In this document: positions 32,282-44,104 of the stretch, piece after piece | Numbering within the stretch: position 1 is the stretch's first letter | How the letters are laid out: the number at the start of each line of letters is the position of its first letter | Origin: Deltaproteobacteria bacterium | GTDB taxonomy: Bacteria; Myxococcota_A; Polyangia; HGW-17; JAJRWW01 | Assembly (NCBI GenBank): GCA_029938605.1 | Contig: JAOZUO010000018.1 | Location: 1 to 46,910, forward strand | Length of the DNA stretch: 46,910 nucleotides | Reading direction: 5' to 3' | Made by a program: the position numbers and the translations under genes | Notes under the pieces: model-generated | What the model was told of the DNA's origin: nothing | Database searches by the model: none | Seen by the model: the letters and a program-made list of their open reading frames with translations, nothing else

Positions 32282-34600
32282 GTGGCGACGGACCAGCCCG
32301 ACAAAATAACCAAGAAACGCAGCAAGTTCCATCCCCTGTTCTGGCTGGTAATCACCTTTGAGTTCTTTGAGCGGGGCAGCTACTACGGCATGATGAGCGT
32401 GCTGTCGGTCTACATGACCGAGCACCTCCACTTCGCCAAAACCGACGTGGGCCTCATCAAGTCCACGATCCAGCCTCTGCTGTACTTTTTGCCCATCATC
32501 AGCGGCGCCCTGGCCGATCGATTCGGCTATCGGCGCACCCTGATGATCGCCTTCTCCCTGCTCGGAACCGGCTACTTCCTCACCAGCCAGGCCACGGGCT
32601 ACGCCGCGGTGTTCTTGTCGCTGGTGGTCATGGCCGTGGGCGCCGGCACCTTCAAACCGGTGATCTCGGGCTCCATCGCCCGTTGCACCGACGAGACCAA
32701 CGCCACCCTCGGCTTCGGCATCTTCTACTGGACCATCAACCTCGGGGCCTTCCTGTTCCCGCTGTTCCTGGTGCCCTTCCTCAAGAACAACATCGGCTGG
32801 CGCTGGGTGATCATCGCCGCGGCCATCGGCACCGGCTCCATGCTGCTACCGACCTTCCTCTTCTTCCGGGAGCCTCCCAAGCCACCGGAGACCGAGGAGG
32901 AGAAGAAAAAGCCGAAGTCCACCCTGCTACAGACCCTGGCCAACGCCTTCGAGATCATCTACAGCCCGGTGGTCCTGCTCAACTCACTCATGCGCCGCTC
33001 GGGTATTGGAGCGGTGGTGATCGGGTCCGCCCTGGTCGGCATTCTGGCCTGGGGCGCCTACGACTACGCGCAGCCCGGTTGGGACAAGCACACCCTGTCG
33101 GCCCGCCGAATCAAGCTCGGCAACACGCAACTGAACGTGAAGGTGCAGCGCGATCTCAGCCGGGTCAAGCCCTACTCCTTGCAGTGGAAGACCAAACCAG
33201 GGGAGATCCTGCTCACCCTGTACGACCCCAACCGGTTCCCCAAATACGCCGACAAGCTCCTATCCGAGCTGCGGACCCTACACGGCCCGGGGGCCATCCG
33301 TATTGGTCAGCTCAAGGACGTACTCAAGATCTCCGAGCTGCATCGGCTCTATCAGCTCCACGGGCTACAAAGCCTCACTGCGAAGCAGCTCGAAAAAGTA
33401 CAGGCTGACGCCGTCGGCATGATGACCCTGGTGGTGGTGGTGGATCGCAGTCAGTCCGCTCCCTTTGAGCTCAAGCGCCAATCCAAGCATCAGTTTGTGC
33501 TGACCCTGAACCACCAGGACGTGGCCCGCACCCACAAGTTGGCGCTCCGCGCAGCCCTGGACGGCCAACCCGAGCTGACCACCCTCAACCAATCCAAGCT
33601 GAACGAGCTGGTGGGCAAGGGTCGCAACAAAAGCTTCTTCATGCTCTTCGTCGGACTGCTGTTGCTCGGCGCCTTCGTGGTGATCCGCATCGCCCCGCGG
33701 TTCAAGGCGACCGAGACGCTGGGATCCAAGCTGGGGTTGATGCTGCTGGTCATGGGACCCCTGCTGGCCCTGCTGTGGCTGCTGCCCAACCTGTCGTACT
33801 TCGCACGCATCCTATGCACCGCCATCGCCATAACGCTGCTGTCGCTGTACGAGATCAACACCGAGGATGTCTCCAAGTTCCGTGACCACGCGCGGTTCCT
33901 GCTGATGATCTTCCTGTACGCCGGCTTCTGGGTGCTCTACTTCCAGATGTTCGATTCAGTGCTTTGGTATGTGAAGGCCTACGTGGACGCCTCGAGCCTC
34001 AACAACTTCGTAAACGGTATCGGGGCGTGGTTCGGCGCCGACCTGAAGTGGCGCTTCGACATCGAGCACGTGACGGTGATCAACGCCGCCACCATCATCA
34101 CCTTGCAGCTATACATCTCCCACCTGGTGAAGAACACCAAGGCGCTGCCCACCATGATCGTCGGTATCTGCATGGGCACCGTGGGCATGGCGATCCTCGC
34201 CCTGTCTACGGGGATCTGGGTGTTCATGCTGGGCATCGTGATCTTCAGCGTGGGGGAGATGACCGCCCACCCGAAGTTCATCGCCTACGTGGGCCAGACC
34301 GCGCCCAAGTCCCGGGTGGCCATGTATATGGGCTACCTGTTCCTCTACGGCGTCATCGGCGCCTCCATCGGCGGCGTGCTGGGCGCCAAGCTCTATGTGG
34401 AGTTCGTGGACCAGCGCAATGAGCCGCGCACCCTGTGGCTTATCTTCACCTGCATCGGCGTAGCCACGGTGGTGGGTCTGCTGCTCTACAACCGTTTCTT
34501 CGGCAAAAAGACGCTGGTGGAGAGCGAAGACAGCACCGCCTCGGATCCCTCGGATCCCTCGGATCCCTCGGATCCCTCGGATCCCTCGGACAACAAATAG
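32282..34600 (+). CDS. POT/PTR2-family proton-coupled transporter with inserted soluble domain
   Basis: A 772-residue transporter starting at GTG, with GAGGA 7 bp upstream. The N-terminal bundle carries the POT signature FEFFERGSYYG (26-36, with E27, E30, R31 as ExxER) and GAGTFKPVISGSIARCTDE (120-138). These mark proton-coupled di/tripeptide transporters. Family members are usually near 450-600 residues; here a soluble stretch of about 185 residues (about 263-449) lies between two membrane helices in the middle, containing RIKLGNTQLNVKVQRDLS and FELKRQSKHQFVLTLNHQD. Its fold was not recognised. The C-terminus is a repeated SDP motif. It is monocistronic by appearance. The substrate may be peptides, but the family also includes other substrates. 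Confidence 0.88.
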   Translation: MATDQPDKITKKRSKFHPLFWLVITFEFFERGSYYGMMSVLSVYMTEHLHFAKTDVGLIKSTIQPLLYFLPIISGALADRFGYRRTLMIAFSLLGTGYFLTSQATGYAAVFLSLVVMAVGAGTFKPVISGSIARCTDETNATLGFGIFYWTINLGAFLFPLFLVPFLKNNIGWRWVIIAAAIGTGSMLLPTFLFFREPPKPPETEEEKKKPKSTLLQTLANAFEIIYSPVVLLNSLMRRSGIGAVVIGSALVGILAWGAYDYAQPGWDKHTLSARRIKLGNTQLNVKVQRDLSRVKPYSLQWKTKPGEILLTLYDPNRFPKYADKLLSELRTLHGPGAIRIGQLKDVLKISELHRLYQLHGLQSLTAKQLEKVQADAVGMMTLVVVVDRSQSAPFELKRQSKHQFVLTLNHQDVARTHKLALRAALDGQPELTTLNQSKLNELVGKGRNKSFFMLFVGLLLLGAFVVIRIAPRFKATETLGSKLGLMLLVMGPLLALLWLLPNLSYFARILCTAIAITLLSLYEINTEDVSKFRDHARFLLMIFLYAGFWVLYFQMFDSVLWYVKAYVDASSLNNFVNGIGAWFGADLKWRFDIEHVTVINAATIITLQLYISHLVKNTKALPTMIVGICMGTVGMAILALSTGIWVFMLGIVIFSVGEMTAHPKFIAYVGQTAPKSRVAMYMGYLFLYGVIGASIGGVLGAKLYVEFVDQRNEPRTLWLIFTCIGVATVVGLLLYNRFFGKKTLVESEDSTASDPSDPSDPSDPSDPSDNK
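34541..34585 (+). repeat. 9-bp tandem repeats at the POT C-terminus
   Basis: Five perfect copies of TCGGATCCC, encoding (SDP)5 just before the stop. In-frame and outside the membrane core. Confidence 0.9.
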
Positions 34601-36275: not shown

Positions 36276-37964
36276 ATGACCGACGCCGCCGATCCAGCCG
36301 ACAACACACAAGAGCCACATGGCGGTTCCACATCCATGCCCACCAGCTCAGCTTTGGGTATGGTGGTGGACGGCCGCTACAGAATCGTCCAACCCCTGGC
36401 CGAAGGCGGTATGGGCTCGGTGTTCCTGGGTCTGCAGGAGAATCTGAACCGGCGTGTGGCCATCAAGCGGGTGAGCCAGCCCGAGGAGCAGGACGCCGAA
36501 CGATTCCGGCGGGAGGCCGAGGCCCTGGCCGCCGTGTCCCACCCGGCCATCGTAGAAGTGTACGACTACGTCAATGAGCCCACAGCCTCAGTGAGCTACC
36601 TGATCATGGCCTACGTGGACGGCGAGAACCTGGAGGACTACATCGATGGGCAACCCCAGGGCGTAGTCACACCGTTGGAGTCCCTCGGGCTGATGGTGCC
36701 CGTGGCCTCGGCCCTGGTGGAGCTGCACTCCCACGAGATCCTCCACCGCGACATCAAGCCCGCCAACCTCGTACGCTATGAGCGCGCCGACCGCCGCGCC
36801 GCAGTGAAGCTGGTGGACTTCGGCATCGCCCGGCGGGCTCAGGACCCCGGGCTCACGGCCGCGGGGCTCATCGTGGGCACGCCGCCCTACCTGTCGCCGG
36901 AGGTGATCCTGGGCAAGGGCCACTCCGAGGGGTCCGACGTCTACGCCTTCGGGGCCACGCTCTTCGAGCTGCTCACCGGCGAACCGCCCCACGGTAAGGA
37001 TGACCTGCACCAGATTCTCAAGCACGCCACCCAGGAGGACGTGACCCTACCCGCCTCACTCAACGCCACCCCGCTGGGCACGCTGCTATTGCGGGTACTC
37101 AACCGGGAAGACGAGGGGCGGCCGACCATGCAGACTGTGCTCGATGAGCTGGAGCAGATCCGGCTGTCGTTGCTCATGGAGAGCGGTGATCCCGACGCCC
37201 CTCTCAGGGCCACGCGCAACATCTCCGGAGCCACCATGCCGCCGGGCTTCGGCCAAGCATCCCTCTCTCTCCAGGCCGTCACCGCGGCCATTAATCCGCT
37301 GCGGAGTGACCCCGCAACCACCAGGGAGGTCCCTCCGGGAGCCACCGCCCTGGTGTCCCAGCCTGAGACTCCCCAGCACACCCTCGAGGTCAAGCGACTA
37401 CGCGCGGCGCCAGACGTTCGCACCGCCCGGCAGACCCCGGTTGTGCCCTGGATCCTAGCCGGTGTCATGGGAGTGGTGGCCGTCGTGGTCACAATCCTGC
37501 TCCTGGTGTCCGAGCCCGGGGAGAAGAAGCCTCCAGAGACGAAGGATGTGAAAAATCCCATCGTCGCCAACACCATGAACGGCGTCCCCGAGATCCTGAG
37601 CCGTCCCACTCCCCGCCGCCACTCCGAGGGGACCACGTCCCTGTCCGGAATCGGCCGGGCCAAACTCACGGGTGAGCTCCTGGCCGGGTGCAGTAACCTA
37701 AAAAAGGCCACGAGTCTCTTTTACAAGGCCGACCGCCGCCGCCGCAAAAAGCAGCACCATGAATGGGCCAAGGCAGCCTTCAGCGCCTTGATCCAGTGCA
37801 GCCACGCCATCTCCGGTCAGAAGATGTGGGCCGCCTACCGCCTGGCCAAGCTCCACGCCAAGGACGGCGAATGCGCCTCCGTAGACCAAGCCTGGCGCCA
37901 GTGGGCCCTCAACGGCGGCCTCCGCAAAAACGGGCACCTCAAAAAACCCCGTTGCCCTAAGTAG
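36276..37964 (+). CDS. Transmembrane Ser/Thr protein kinase with Cys-containing extracytoplasmic domain
   Basis: A 562-residue Hanks-type kinase; TTGGAG lies 8 bp before the ATG. The kinase domain (about 33-300) has LAEGGMGSV (41-49), VAIK64, HRDIKPAN (157-164, D159), DFG (181-183) and GTPPYLSPE (201-209), so it should be active. A Pro/Thr-rich juxtamembrane stretch leads to one membrane helix (about 390-412). The extracytoplasmic part (about 415-562) is basic, helical and has four Cys (AGCSNLKKATSLFY, LIQCSHAI, DGECASVD, PRCPK); no known domain was recognised. It differs from the PEGA tail of the kinase at 19211. It follows a Cys-rich/RCC1 lipoprotein gene, and its stop codon forms the edge of a long hairpin. 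Confidence 0.92.
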   Translation: MTDAADPADNTQEPHGGSTSMPTSSALGMVVDGRYRIVQPLAEGGMGSVFLGLQENLNRRVAIKRVSQPEEQDAERFRREAEALAAVSHPAIVEVYDYVNEPTASVSYLIMAYVDGENLEDYIDGQPQGVVTPLESLGLMVPVASALVELHSHEILHRDIKPANLVRYERADRRAAVKLVDFGIARRAQDPGLTAAGLIVGTPPYLSPEVILGKGHSEGSDVYAFGATLFELLTGEPPHGKDDLHQILKHATQEDVTLPASLNATPLGTLLLRVLNREDEGRPTMQTVLDELEQIRLSLLMESGDPDAPLRATRNISGATMPPGFGQASLSLQAVTAAINPLRSDPATTREVPPGATALVSQPETPQHTLEVKRLRAAPDVRTARQTPVVPWILAGVMGVVAVVVTILLLVSEPGEKKPPETKDVKNPIVANTMNGVPEILSRPTPRRHSEGTTSLSGIGRAKLTGELLAGCSNLKKATSLFYKADRRRRKKQHHEWAKAAFSALIQCSHAISGQKMWAAYRLAKLHAKDGECASVDQAWRQWALNGGLRKNGHLKKPRCPK

Positions 37965-38126
37965 TTGCCACCCCAGAAGTGGCTTCGAAGCGAAAGCGTG
38001 CCAGGTGCGTCGGATGTGCACTACCAGATCTGGTGGTTGTACCGGGCGTACTACCCCAGATCTGGTGGTGTGCAGACGGCGTGCCTGGTGCGCTTGCAGC
38101 CGATGTCCACTTCTGGGGTGGCAACT
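37963..38126. repeat. Long imperfect inverted repeat (element A)
   Basis: The outer 20 bp are perfectly complementary (AGTTGCCACCCCAGAAGTGG at 37963-37982 with 38107-38126), and pairing continues inwards with many C/T differences that would be G-U pairs in RNA. The centre holds ACCAGATCTGGT (38023-38034) and CCAGATCTGG (38056-38065), themselves palindromes. It begins in the stop codon of the kinase gene. It could act as a terminator or a mobile palindromic unit. Its core differs from elements B, C and D. Confidence 0.75.
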
Positions 38127-38127
38127 A

Positions 38128-38288
38128 AGGGTCCGCGAATGGACAACTCAGTCGTCCTGGCCGCCGATCCATCCCGCTGGTCGGCGTCGCTCGTCGGTTG
38201 CATAGGCACCGCTATACGCCCTCCTCGCTCCTTGCCCAGCGGGCGCCTCGACGACCATCATCGATCGAGTTGTCCATTCGCGGACCCT
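38128..38288 (-). repeat. Dispersed palindromic element, copy B
   Basis: Perfect 22-bp arms (starting AGGGTCCGCGAATGGACAAC at 38128 and closing at 38267-38288). Read on the minus strand the core is GCGAGGAGGGCGTATA, then CTATGCAACCGACGAGCGAC, matching copies C and D. It reaches the stop codon of the RDD gene. With element A it fills the whole space between two convergent genes, and CCCTAAGTAG occurs at both outer edges (37955-37964 and 38285-38294). Confidence 0.8.
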
Positions 38289-39021
38289 AAGTAGGTCCCC
38301 AGGTCTCCGACTCGTCGGGGGGGGCGCCTACGATGACCTGGGTGGAGGCGATGAGATCGTGAAGACAGCGGCGCTCCTGACCGAAGATAAGCAACGGGTC
38401 CACCAGACCGACAATGCCACCAATGTAGGGGATGTTGGTGATCAGGCTCATGACCCAGCCGCGCAAAAGTACGCCGTTGACAAAGCCCGGCATGGAGCCG
38501 TCCAGCTTCACGATGCGGATATGCAGCCATTTTTTGCCCAGGGACTGGCCCCGGGTGGCGATGAGGTACCACTGGTAGATGGCCAGGATCAGGACGCCGA
38601 CGCCCATGACTCCCACGGCGAGCCATAGATCGCTCTCCTTCTTGGAATCTATGGACTTGAGGAAATCGTACAACAGGATGAACCCGGGCAGGGCGGCCGC
38701 AATGGAGAGGAGTCCGTCGAGTATGGCCGCGACGAGACGTGTACCCCGACCGGCCAGCTCGTAGGGCTGCCAATATGGCTGGTGACCGTAGCCCCCCTGC
38801 GGCGGATAGCCGCCACCGGGCGGTGCGTAGGGGTTGTGCTCGCCACCGGGCGGCGGGTAGCCACCGGGCGGCGGGTAGCCTCCGCCGGCGGGCGGGTAGC
38901 CATCGGGCGGCGGGTAGCCTCCGCCAGCGGGCGGGTAGCCATCGAGCGCCGGGTAGCCGCCATCGGGATTGTCACCTTGCGGAGGCGAGGCGCCCGGCGG
39001 ATTGCGGTTGCGATCGTCCAT
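38287..39021 (-). CDS. RDD family membrane protein with Gly-Tyr-Pro-rich N-terminus
   Basis: A 244-residue protein from ATG 39021, which has GAGGAG just upstream; the open frame further upstream runs through the neighbouring gene and is not protein-like. Residues 15-80 are low complexity, repeats of GGYPPP / DGYPPA, ending near YGHQPYWQPYELAGRG. The rest is an RDD domain: RGTRLVAAILDGLLSI (Arg and Asp in the first helix), a second and third helix, and RGQSLGKKWLHIRIVKLDG. A final basic/acidic segment ends DLIASTQVIVG. RDD proteins are small membrane proteins; some act as Na+/H+ antiporters, most are unstudied. The gene is 62 bp after the giant Cys-rich lipoprotein gene on the same strand. Confidence 0.85.
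   Translation of the reverse strand: MDDRNRNPPGASPPQGDNPDGGYPALDGYPPAGGGYPPPDGYPPAGGGYPPPGGYPPPGGEHNPYAPPGGGYPPQGGYGHQPYWQPYELAGRGTRLVAAILDGLLSIAAALPGFILLYDFLKSIDSKKESDLWLAVGVMGVGVLILAIYQWYLIATRGQSLGKKWLHIRIVKLDGSMPGFVNGVLLRGWVMSLITNIPYIGGIVGLVDPLLIFGQERRCLHDLIASTQVIVGAPPDESETWGPT
38796..38961 (-). repeat. Degenerate tandem repeats encoding GYPPP motifs
   Basis: Repeating GGCGGGTAGCC-type units of mixed length within the RDD gene, encoding the cytoplasmic Gly-Tyr-Pro tail. Confidence 0.6.
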
Positions 39022-42000: not shown

Positions 42001-42515
42001 TCGCGCTCGCACTCCTCGTCGCAGCCGTCCCCGCCCACCACGTTGCCGTCGTCGCACCCCTCGCCAATCTCGTGAATGGAGTTGCCGCACAGCGCCCCCG
42101 GCTCATCGTCCAGACACAACGCACTACAGCCATCGCCGTCGGTGAGGTTGTCATCATCGCACTGCTCGCCGACATCCAACCGCCCGTTCCCGCAGCCCCT
42201 TTCCACGCGGCACAGCGCGTCGCAGCCGTCGCCTGCGACATAGTTGCCGTCGTCGCACTCCTCGCCAACCTCCACGACGTTGTTCGCGCAGAACGCCTCC
42301 ACCTCGCAGACGGAGTTGCACCCATCGTGACCCGTGGTGTTGCCGTCGTCACACTGCTCACCGGGGTTGATCACTCCGTTGCCGCACAGATCGACGTGGC
42401 TATTGTTGTTGTCCTGGGTGGAAGAAATGCACCCCGCCATGAGCAGCATCGCGACCATTCCAACCGTCGTTTCGCGTAGGAGGCTGGCGTGAATAAACTT
42501 GTCAAGTTGGGACAC
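39084..42515 (-). CDS. Giant Cys-rich (DUF4215-repeat) lipoprotein with repeated beta-sandwich modules
   Basis: About 1143 residues if started at GTG 42515. A signal region ([22 protein letters not shown]) ends in a good lipobox, LMAGC, Cys29. Residues about 35-400 carry around ten DUF4215-type Cys-rich repeats, such as [16 protein letters not shown] and [14 protein letters not shown], common on myxobacterial surface proteins. Then come three MAM/jelly-roll-like modules, each with a GW(YV)DxV ending ([36 protein letters not shown]), separated by two putative Ig-like domains ([30 protein letters not shown]). Likely a large surface adhesin. The start is uncertain because a palindromic element (42479-42634) covers the 5' end; the frame stays open to 42896. 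Lipidation is predicted only. Confidence 0.8.
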
Positions 42516-42634
42516 GAGGCGCGCGGAAGCCAAGGCGCGAGGAGGGCGCATACTCTGCGTATGCAACCGACGAGCAACGCAGGCAGCCGCGATGGATCGG
42601 GTTCCAGGTGACAAGTTTATTTGCGCCTGCCTCC
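42479..42634 (+). repeat. Dispersed palindromic element, copy C
   Basis: Arms of 26 bp (42479-42504 with 42609-42634) pair with three mismatches, two of them G-U type; the inner part is AATAAACTTGTCA / TGACAAGTTTATT. The core reads GCGAGGAGGGCGCATAC then GTATGCAACCGACGAGCAAC and GATGGATCGG. It lies over the 5' end of the giant lipoprotein gene and is 156 bp, a multiple of three, so the frame passes through it open. Confidence 0.8.
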
Positions 42635-42879
42635 TTAGGGTCGGGAATCGGCAACGTGACATATGGGAAATCCTCGAGCTCTGGTTCAGTACAAGGCCGA
42701 CCGAAGAGTCCATGATTTGAGCCCACTGGTCGTACAACCCCTTCAGCGACAAATCATACCGTGGTGGAAGGTATTCGTCGAGCACGCCATTGGGCTTTCC
42801 CCAGGGCAACCAAATAGGTACACTGTCTGGCAGTTCGCCTTCGGGACCATCGGCGGACGTCGGATTGAAGGAGTCGTTC
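42635..42879. other. Intergenic region with an open minus-strand frame of unclear status
   Basis: Between element C and the rightward gene at 42880. On the minus strand the reading frame of the giant lipoprotein continues to 42896 and encodes protein-like sequence (SVPIWLPWGKPNGVLDEY, YDLSLKGLYDQWAQIMD). No ribosome-binding site or signal fits, and it may be chance or a remnant of a gene broken by the element. The rightward promoter should also be here, but none is clear. Confidence 0.3.
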
Positions 42880-43682: not shown

Positions 43683-43934
43683 ATGCGTGCTGCACTGCTG
43701 ATCGCCACCCTCGTGGCCGCCTTGGTCGGCGCGCCCTCCTGCTTCAAACCCGAGATCGCCGATGTGGCCTTCCGCTGCGGCGATGACGAGCTCTGCCCCA
43801 GTGGCTACACCTGCGGAGCCGACGGGTGCTGCCACAAGGATGGCAGCGATCCCAGCGACCACGGGGCCTGCCTCGTGTGGGACGACGCCGCCGTGATTCA
43901 GGACGCCTCCCCCACCACCGACGCCAGCTCGTAA
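43683..43934 (+). CDS. Small Cys-rich lipoprotein
   Basis: An 83-residue exported protein. Signal sequence LLIATLVAALVGAPSC, with Cys20 as probable lipid site (weak lipobox). The mature part carries a compact disulphide-type cluster: CGDDELCPSGYTCGADGCC, followed by an acidic tail (DASPTTDASS). Small proteins with the CPSGYTC / GCC pattern are frequent as surface lipoproteins in Myxococcota. It starts 2 bp after the stop of the preceding hairpin protein, so the two are cotranscribed and probably translationally coupled. No function is known. Its stop codon is directly followed by palindromic element D. Confidence 0.75.
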   Translation: MRAALLIATLVAALVGAPSCFKPEIADVAFRCGDDELCPSGYTCGADGCCHKDGSDPSDHGACLVWDDAAVIQDASPTTDASS

Positions 43935-44090
43935 GGGTCCGTCCAGAAATAAGTCCTCGATTCAGGGCGTCGGTACGCCCGGCTCGCAAGGCACGACGAG
44001 GCGCATACTTATTGATATGCAACGAGAAGTAACGAAGCGAGCCGGGATGTACCGGCGGCCTGGGCGATCGAGTTATTTCTGGACGGGCCC
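43935..44090 (+). repeat. Dispersed palindromic element, copy D
   Basis: Arms of 18 bp (GGGTCCGTCCAGAAATAA with its complement at 44073-44090, one T/C difference) continue with CTCGAT pairing. The core is CGACGAGGCGCATAC then ATATGCAACGAGAAGTAACG and CCGGGATGTACCGG. It begins one base after the upstream stop codon and ends 14 bp before the stop of the convergent glycosyltransferase gene. Length is 156 bp, as copy C. Confidence 0.8.
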
Positions 44091-44104
44091 TGACCCCGTC
44101 CGGG

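Follow-up and report, generated by a model that had tools for sequence, protein, structure and literature searches.

In a stretch of 46,910 nucleotides from a Deltaproteobacteria bacterium (contig JAOZUO010000018.1; hereafter the window), three palindromes, designated B, C and D, were noticed to share a core of about 75 bp while their outer arms differ from copy to copy and yet pair within each copy. The usual mark of a transposon is its ends, which stay conserved while the middle drifts. Here the reverse was found: it is the middle that is conserved from phylum to phylum, and the ends vary, in matched pairs. The locus raises the question of what kind of repeat can hold on to its middle and let go of its ends. 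The earlier note set the pattern against that of simple MITEs, whose copies would share their ends, and proposed either selection for an RNA or DNA hairpin with free arm sequence or a replication process that templates one arm from the other.

The palindromes and their subfamilies in the host genome

Element B is an imperfect palindrome of 159 bp (38129..38287) with its core sense on the minus strand; C (42479..42634) and D (43935..44090) are 156 bp each, with their core sense on the plus strand, and the positions first reported for all three were right to within one base. A core model (R2) run over the window found exactly three cores and no match elsewhere: 38165..38240 on the minus strand in B (71.7 bits, E 6.6e-18), 42525..42599 on the plus strand in C (80.9 bits, E 1.9e-20) and 43981..44054 on the plus strand in D (69.5 bits, E 2.6e-17), which bears out the shared core. 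Inside each element the arms are 88-90% complementary over 25-31 nt. Among the three, B alone is flanked by the same TNA left and right, namely TAA at 38126..38128 and again at 38288..38290. The flanks of C are GTA (42476..42478) and TTA (42635-42637), and those of D are TAA (43932..43934), apparently the stop codon of the preceding frame, and TGA (44091-44093), neither pair being an identical duplication. Next to B lies a further palindrome, A (37961..38125), which has no R2 match and is bounded by TAA on each side; one TAA is common to both palindromes, so that the arrangement reads TAA-A-TAA-B-TAA. The outer arms of A (21 nt) are perfectly matched, and partial matches to A of 31-32 bp occur at two other places of its own genome among the loci fetched. 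Elsewhere in the window, a perfect 9-bp tandem repeat, CCTCGGATC, occupies 34539-34590 near the 3' end of a long frame (32282-34600).

The host genome (G000) is a draft of 8.56 Mb in 359 contigs and is 92% complete. A covariance model built from the three copies gave at least 130 matches in it, a lower bound because 150 of 798 first-look candidates were scored. Near-complete palindromes of 140-200 bp (∼160 bp) made up 121 of the 130, and the other nine were left out of the palindrome set as fragments, variants or weak matches. The R2 core model gave at least 121 matches in the same genome, at least seven of the places listed lying beyond those of the three-copy model. B belongs to a subfamily of 10 near full-length copies, the others being 92-97% identical to it, plus fragments, many of them at contig ends; the C subfamily has 18 near full-length copies (the others 90-95% identical to C) and the D subfamily about 20 copies (86-97% identity across most of the length). 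The arms of B, C and D differ because each element stems from a different one of these three subfamilies.

The same holds on a larger scale. In the 102 of the 121 copies that could be anchored at GG...CC, the arms fell into 14 clusters, of 24, 22, 18, 16, 6, 4, 3, 2 and 2 copies and five singles. Because the arms are common to the members of a subfamily, they are terminal inverted repeats. The proposed contrast with MITEs is wrong in part: terminal inverted repeats, TNA duplications and ends shared within a subfamily are as in MITEs, and it is between subfamilies that the arms differ. The finding that had been named in advance as contrary to the proposal, that most copies share the same arms, was half realised, since most anchored copies do so inside their own cluster.

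A second group of 13 host copies, which accounts for 13 of the 19 unanchored ones, has the same core, unrelated arms and CTAG-like ends (G000 contigs and, where given, positions C236:11152, C236:20881, C113, C243, C56:26581, C58:29822, C349, C175, C313:45624, C14:28121, C118:80644, C80:24250 and C289). Two copies of the C subfamily are enlarged in the core (L180, G000 C356:11871-12145; L179, G000 C217:7535-7910); the enlargement of L180 is an extra nested hairpin, and the stretch GGCACGAGCGCAGTTAACGCAG is common to both.

Identical 3-bp flanks were present at 70 of the 102 anchored copies (shuffled mean 28.2, maximum 41 in 2000), in a test whose anchor is biased towards A in front of the element and T behind it, a bias that promotes TNA flanks but not their equality. 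TNA stood on both sides of 73 of the 102, with the same N in 65 of the 73. Most anchored copies were preceded by C at -4 (71 of 102) and followed by G at +4 (64 of 102), which gives CTNAG as the preferred target. The empty-site check that had been suggested was positive for D, which is absent from the corresponding site of the congeneric genome G001 (contig C61): the blocks that flank it are 19 nt apart there vs 219 nt in the host. C is a weaker case, because the sequence beyond it aligns poorly to G001 and the spacing there is no shorter than in the host; the G001 contig matching the C region has no core, and the four cores of G001 lie on other contigs. From their many copies, the 3-bp duplications and the empty site, we conclude that the elements are insertions that were mobile in the past.

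Structure of the core and of the arms

Covariation shows that the core folds. In 28 cores aligned without structure, pairing was 88.3% (68.4 +/- 1.3 when shuffled), the covariation score was 0.457 (0.139 +/- 0.015 shuffled, at most 0.078 when slid) and double-changed cells numbered 91 (30.9 +/- 4.0 shuffled). Two of the five measures did not stand out in this unfitted alignment: the number of pairs with double changes (12 of 18) was not unusual alone, being reached in 53 of 500 shuffles, nor was the pair-type measure (87 of 500). Fitting to the model gave 87 distinct rows, which likewise contained compensatory changes. The central pair, 27-61, is G-C in 15, C-G in 12 and A-U in one of the 28 cores, and it sits between two mostly conserved tandem G.A mismatches. 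Of the 87 fitted rows, 68 keep the lower tandem intact, 75 the upper one and 61 both; one subfamily group, read by eye, has the tandems partly swapped for Watson-Crick pairs. Because the G.A tandems would read C.T on the opposite strand, the core has polarity.

If a palindrome were selected only as duplex ends, both of its strands would be expected to fold about alike. The core-sense strand folded better in 26 of 26 host representatives, under RNA as well as DNA parameters, and the advantage was seen in 23 of 26 without the core and in 21 of 26 for the core alone; because the copies are related, neither the 26 of 26 nor the G.T excess described below is a set of independent counts. At 100 places in other genomes (three own-genome rows and five repeats excluded), the core-sense strand was better in 82 of the 95 clear palindromes and in 3 of the 5 places without one, a count that supersedes a hand-picked 59 of 64. 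Elements of the Verrucomicrobiota genome G054 had no strand preference (2 of 6). At six loci (L183, L233, L350, L353, L357 and L200) second, weaker inverted cores lie ∼14-19 nt off, like paired REP units.

The arms showed the same kind of evidence. In 14 representatives, arm pairing was 92.9%, compared with 70.4 +/- 1.6% when the 3' letters were reshuffled, so that the pairing within copies is not due to chance. Changes on both sides were found in 16 of 21 arm pairs, double-changed cells numbered 68 (18.5 +/- 3.7 shuffled), the covariation score was 0.649 (0.186 +/- 0.025 shuffled, at most 0.137 slid), and none of 500 shuffles reached any of the five arm measures. The inner 15 pairs were 90% Watson-Crick within a copy vs 47% between copies with unlike 5' arms. 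The arm sequence is free to a limited extent: it differs between subfamilies, most of all at pairs 8-14, but pairs 1, 2, 6 and 15 were invariant and pairs 14-18 mostly AATAA in the 14 representatives. Half-changed pairs were common: where a subfamily had at least six copies, as six did, one-sided cells numbered 122 and two-sided cells 46.

Changes of the G-U-compatible kind had also been described. On the core-sense strand, arm mismatches were G.T in 81 and A.C in 30 cases (86 distinct host arm pairs), 8 vs 2 by arm-cluster consensus in the host and 175 vs 69 in the 95 palindromes of other genomes; by genome set (64 hand-picked elements), nine sets had the G.T excess vs one without, with one tie. 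A transcription-linked bias towards C-to-T changes on one strand could produce a similar excess or contribute to this one, and matched arm changes alone could reflect two ends bound by one enzyme. Compensatory changes in both core and arms, together with the excess of G.T over A.C, support the proposed selection for a folded strand, and a function of this structured single strand is likely. The matched changes could also arise if one arm were templated from the other; the whole-hairpin form of such templating is rejected as the sole cause, because the G.A mismatches of the core persist and the whole hairpin is thus not being homogenised, and the many half-changed arm pairs likewise speak against templating.

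Occurrence in other genomes and the search for an enzyme

The core recurs, in many copies, in several phyla. A scan of one genome per species with a core pattern returned 61 matches in 59 stretches, from Verrucomicrobiota, Myxococcales, Massilia, Sphingomonadales, Acidobacteria, Vicinamibacteria, Lentisphaeria, Chitinophagales, Bifidobacterium, Clostridia and others. Some of these are chance matches or half cores (nine that lack the 5' half, two Rhodococcus and both Clostridia places among them, were set aside), and about ten are too close to a contig end. The core model found 1 to 92 copies in each of 16 genomes picked by pattern match, and the core was present in 19 of 39 genomes, host included; it was the core pattern or the core model that led to most of the external places. 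Copies numbered 92 in an Acidobacteria MAG, 84 and 81 in Verrucomicrobiota, 63 in Chitinophagales and 17 in Massilia, down to 6 and 7 in Bifidobacterium, one in Sphingopyxis and one per Clostridia genome, where the places are weak core-model matches. The elements in the Chitinophagales, Acidobacteria and Massilia genomes are mostly ∼160 bp, with arms of their own and CTAG, CTNAG or TTA flanks in many, and those of Verrucomicrobiota G054 are shorter (102-103 bp). Same-strand core starts lie 215 bp apart at one Bifidobacterium locus (L214, 6808-7100) and 259 bp apart at one in an Acidobacteria MAG (L199, 1942-2271).

No autonomous partner with the same ends was found in the draft genomes and the limited set of transposase families searched. 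Many accepted MITEs have no known autonomous partner. The host carries four genes of PF01609 (DDE_Tnp_1), named IS4, ISAs1, IS1380 and IS4/Tn5-type by NCBIfam, and these were rejected as partners: their 1500-bp flanks, in which one 14/16 match (L298) and one 11-bp inverted repeat (L297) turned up, contain no end like an element arm, and local inverted repeats within 400 bp of the genes are unlike the arms. At one locus of the host (L299, 175-2352; G000 C204) a single long frame joins a DruA-like domain to an IS4/Tn5-type transposase. PF13340 was found in 2 of the 39 genomes, neither of them the host, and PF13359 in none of the 39, host included, the host draft being 92% complete. Y1 transposases were detected in 9 of 19 core-bearing vs 5 of 20 core-free genomes, including the host and G003 (30 cores), and were not found in G038, G037 or G029, which have 87, 23 and 21 cores. 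We conclude that none of these four families accounts for the elements.

Searching Massilia for the end pattern with at most two mismatches gave 28 end matches vs 4 in the control, 20 of which form ten pairs 157-184 bp apart (read by eye). The eight single ends comprise four that are one end of known elements, one on C23 that appears to mark a further element, two (C8:42475 and C8:148116) for which no partner bracketing a transposase-sized gene was in view, the genes there being unannotated, and one at C3:303917. Enlarged or half copies at C356, C217, C112 and C252 have no gene inside, as read by eye. When 120 of the 193 genes next to the elements were scanned, the 25 listed of 137 matching Pfam families included no transposase, and none of those 25 occurred in more than seven proteins.

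Carriers and earlier descriptions were sought as well. A 52-nt consensus gave two records each in plasmids and phages, all partial, weak and unconvincing, and a 64-nt consensus had no match in plasmids or E. coli. Of six pattern matches in viral contigs, two attained a core-model score of 17.9 bits and the remaining four scored nothing. Rfam yielded no match above the gathering score for the window and nine loci, and chance-level matches alone at a lax threshold for two elements; the covariance model now detects this repeat class, which has no Rfam match, in many genomes. In the accessible literature no title or abstract opening among those listed describes the class, no paper contains any of five sequence strings of the elements, and terms looked up in a REP survey (PMC12306157) gave nothing.

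Probable mobilisation in trans and comparison with known systems

We consider it probable that the elements are non-autonomous palindromic transposons of ∼160 bp, with a CTNAG target, a TNA duplication and a hairpin core that is conserved, and that they are likely moved in trans via the folded core-sense strand. The enzyme would be encoded elsewhere and would use that folded strand, and the ends would be joined by a DDE-type cut-and-paste transposase; we infer this type because the duplication has a fixed length at C|TNA|G, the target also given for NuwaII in the accessible text of PMC4482050. Selection on the core with its tandem G.A mismatches and on the arms with their tolerance of G.T may be for the folded single strand, whether RNA or single-stranded DNA. 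If the arms have a double role, marking the ends for recognition and forming the hairpin stem, their middle could change only in pairs. Palindrome A, which lacks this core and yet occupies the same CTAAG target, suggests that insertion may be possible without the core.

Tentatively, this can be extended to a pan-bacterial class of hairpin transposons, in which the trans-acting enzyme would read the folded strand by its tandem G.A core and the ends would be free provided that they change together, possibly through rewriting of one arm from the other. Such a class is apparently undescribed, as far as the literature searched shows. If the folded strand is indeed recognised, this would be a new way to define a mobile element, and the persistence of gene-less repeats without a visible partner would be explained.

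A more conventional explanation, which we regard as doubtful, is that the elements are ordinary MITEs of successive IS5/PIF-Harbinger-like insertion sequences, each set of arms matched for one transposase and the core an old passenger or a remnant of an insertion sequence. Both the C|TNA|G target with a 3-bp duplication, as in NuwaII (in the accessible text of PMC4482050), and the sharing of ends within arm clusters agree with it. However, PF13340 and PF13359 have the sparse distribution among the 39 genomes given above, a passenger core would not be expected to be conserved and to covary across phyla with unrelated arms, and ordinary MITEs would not be expected to show an excess of G.T over A.C in the arms.

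Gene conversion between copies, which would homogenise the cores while old, slowly diverged arms persist, is unlikely. In its favour, 34 pairs of copies with cores at least 95% identical have three or more compensated arm-pair changes (up to seven among the 12 listed), and at a core identity of 97% or more, pairs 8-14 in the middle of the 5' arm differ to the same degree as the rest, by 6.0% and 5.9%, with 14% of the changed pairs compensated. However, at 94-97% core identity the middle differs by 29% and the rest by 11% (45% of changed pairs compensated), and at 90-94% by 54% and 16% (53% compensated); the changes concentrate in pairs 8-14 with more constant sequence on either side, unlike the graded edges that conversion tracts would be expected to leave.

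A retron-like origin, in which a reverse transcriptase copies the repeats from a structured RNA, is quite improbable. The fold is strand-specific, and msDNA-like repeats for which such a process was proposed are reported from a myxobacterium, Nannocystis exedens, by a title in the reference list of PMC6868368; but duplications of a constant 3 bp at a target that is palindromic, together with ends that are inverted repeats, better fit a cut-and-paste enzyme, and the Rfam searches gave no match at the curated threshold and chance-level ones at the lax threshold.

We likewise give little credence to a hairpin useful to the host in 3'-UTRs, as a terminator or RNA stabiliser, that was spread by selection. 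By a rough gene call, the median distance to genes is 19 bp, and 25 of the 121 copies overlap a gene by more than 60 bp; the 93 copies with both neighbours lie between convergent genes in 32 cases, co-directional genes in 51 and divergent genes in 10, the last being fewer than the expected quarter (p 0.001). Between co-directional genes, however, no clear bias in orientation was seen (29 vs 22, p 0.40), even though one strand folds better than the other; this speaks against a role solely in 3'-UTRs, as do the target duplications. Finally, movement as REP/REPIN-like elements by a REP-associated tyrosine (Y1) transposase is largely refuted, for although the elements are mostly intergenic, hairpin-forming and near gene ends, and Y1 is found more often in core-bearing than in core-free genomes, there is no Y1 match in 10 of the 19 core-bearing genomes, including those with 87, 23 and 21 cores, and Y1 enzymes, which transpose single strands, would not be expected to leave target duplications.

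Several known systems resemble the trans-mobilised hairpin transposons that we favour. The msDNA-like sequences of Nannocystis exedens, likened here by title alone (reference list of PMC6868368), are likewise repetitive, structured and chromosomal. REPs and REPINs with their RAYT, units that bear a GTAG or CGTC tag at one end, also form hairpins in the chromosome close to the ends of genes, some of them as inverted pairs, with a hairpin unit of 20-40 bp according to the accessible part of PMC3733652; the present elements differ in being four to eight times longer (∼160 bp), in their target duplications and in the absence of a Y1 match from so many core-bearing genomes. NuwaII, of the PHIS superfamily, agrees with the elements in its target, C|TNA|G, and in its TNA duplication of 3 bp, and is compared with bacterial IS5, a group whose duplication is ANT, in the accessible text of PMC4482050; unlike in PHIS and IS5, no PF13340 or PF13359 transposase was found in the host.

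Mobile, gene-less, inverted-repeat elements with target duplications are known already. What differs here is that the core rather than the ends stays constant across phyla, that its hairpin structure has polarity, and that changes in the ends come in pairs. The MITEs ERIC and Correia are short, palindromic, multicopy, mostly intergenic and gene-less, with a target duplication, and the present elements share all of these traits. They also have the terminal inverted repeats, fixed-length duplication and short length without coding capacity by which MITEs are defined. In contrast to ERIC and Correia, as MITEs are treated in the accessible part of PMC10969869, what stays constant across the subfamilies is a structured core rather than the ends alone, this core occurs in several phyla with unrelated arms, and the two ends vary in matched pairs.
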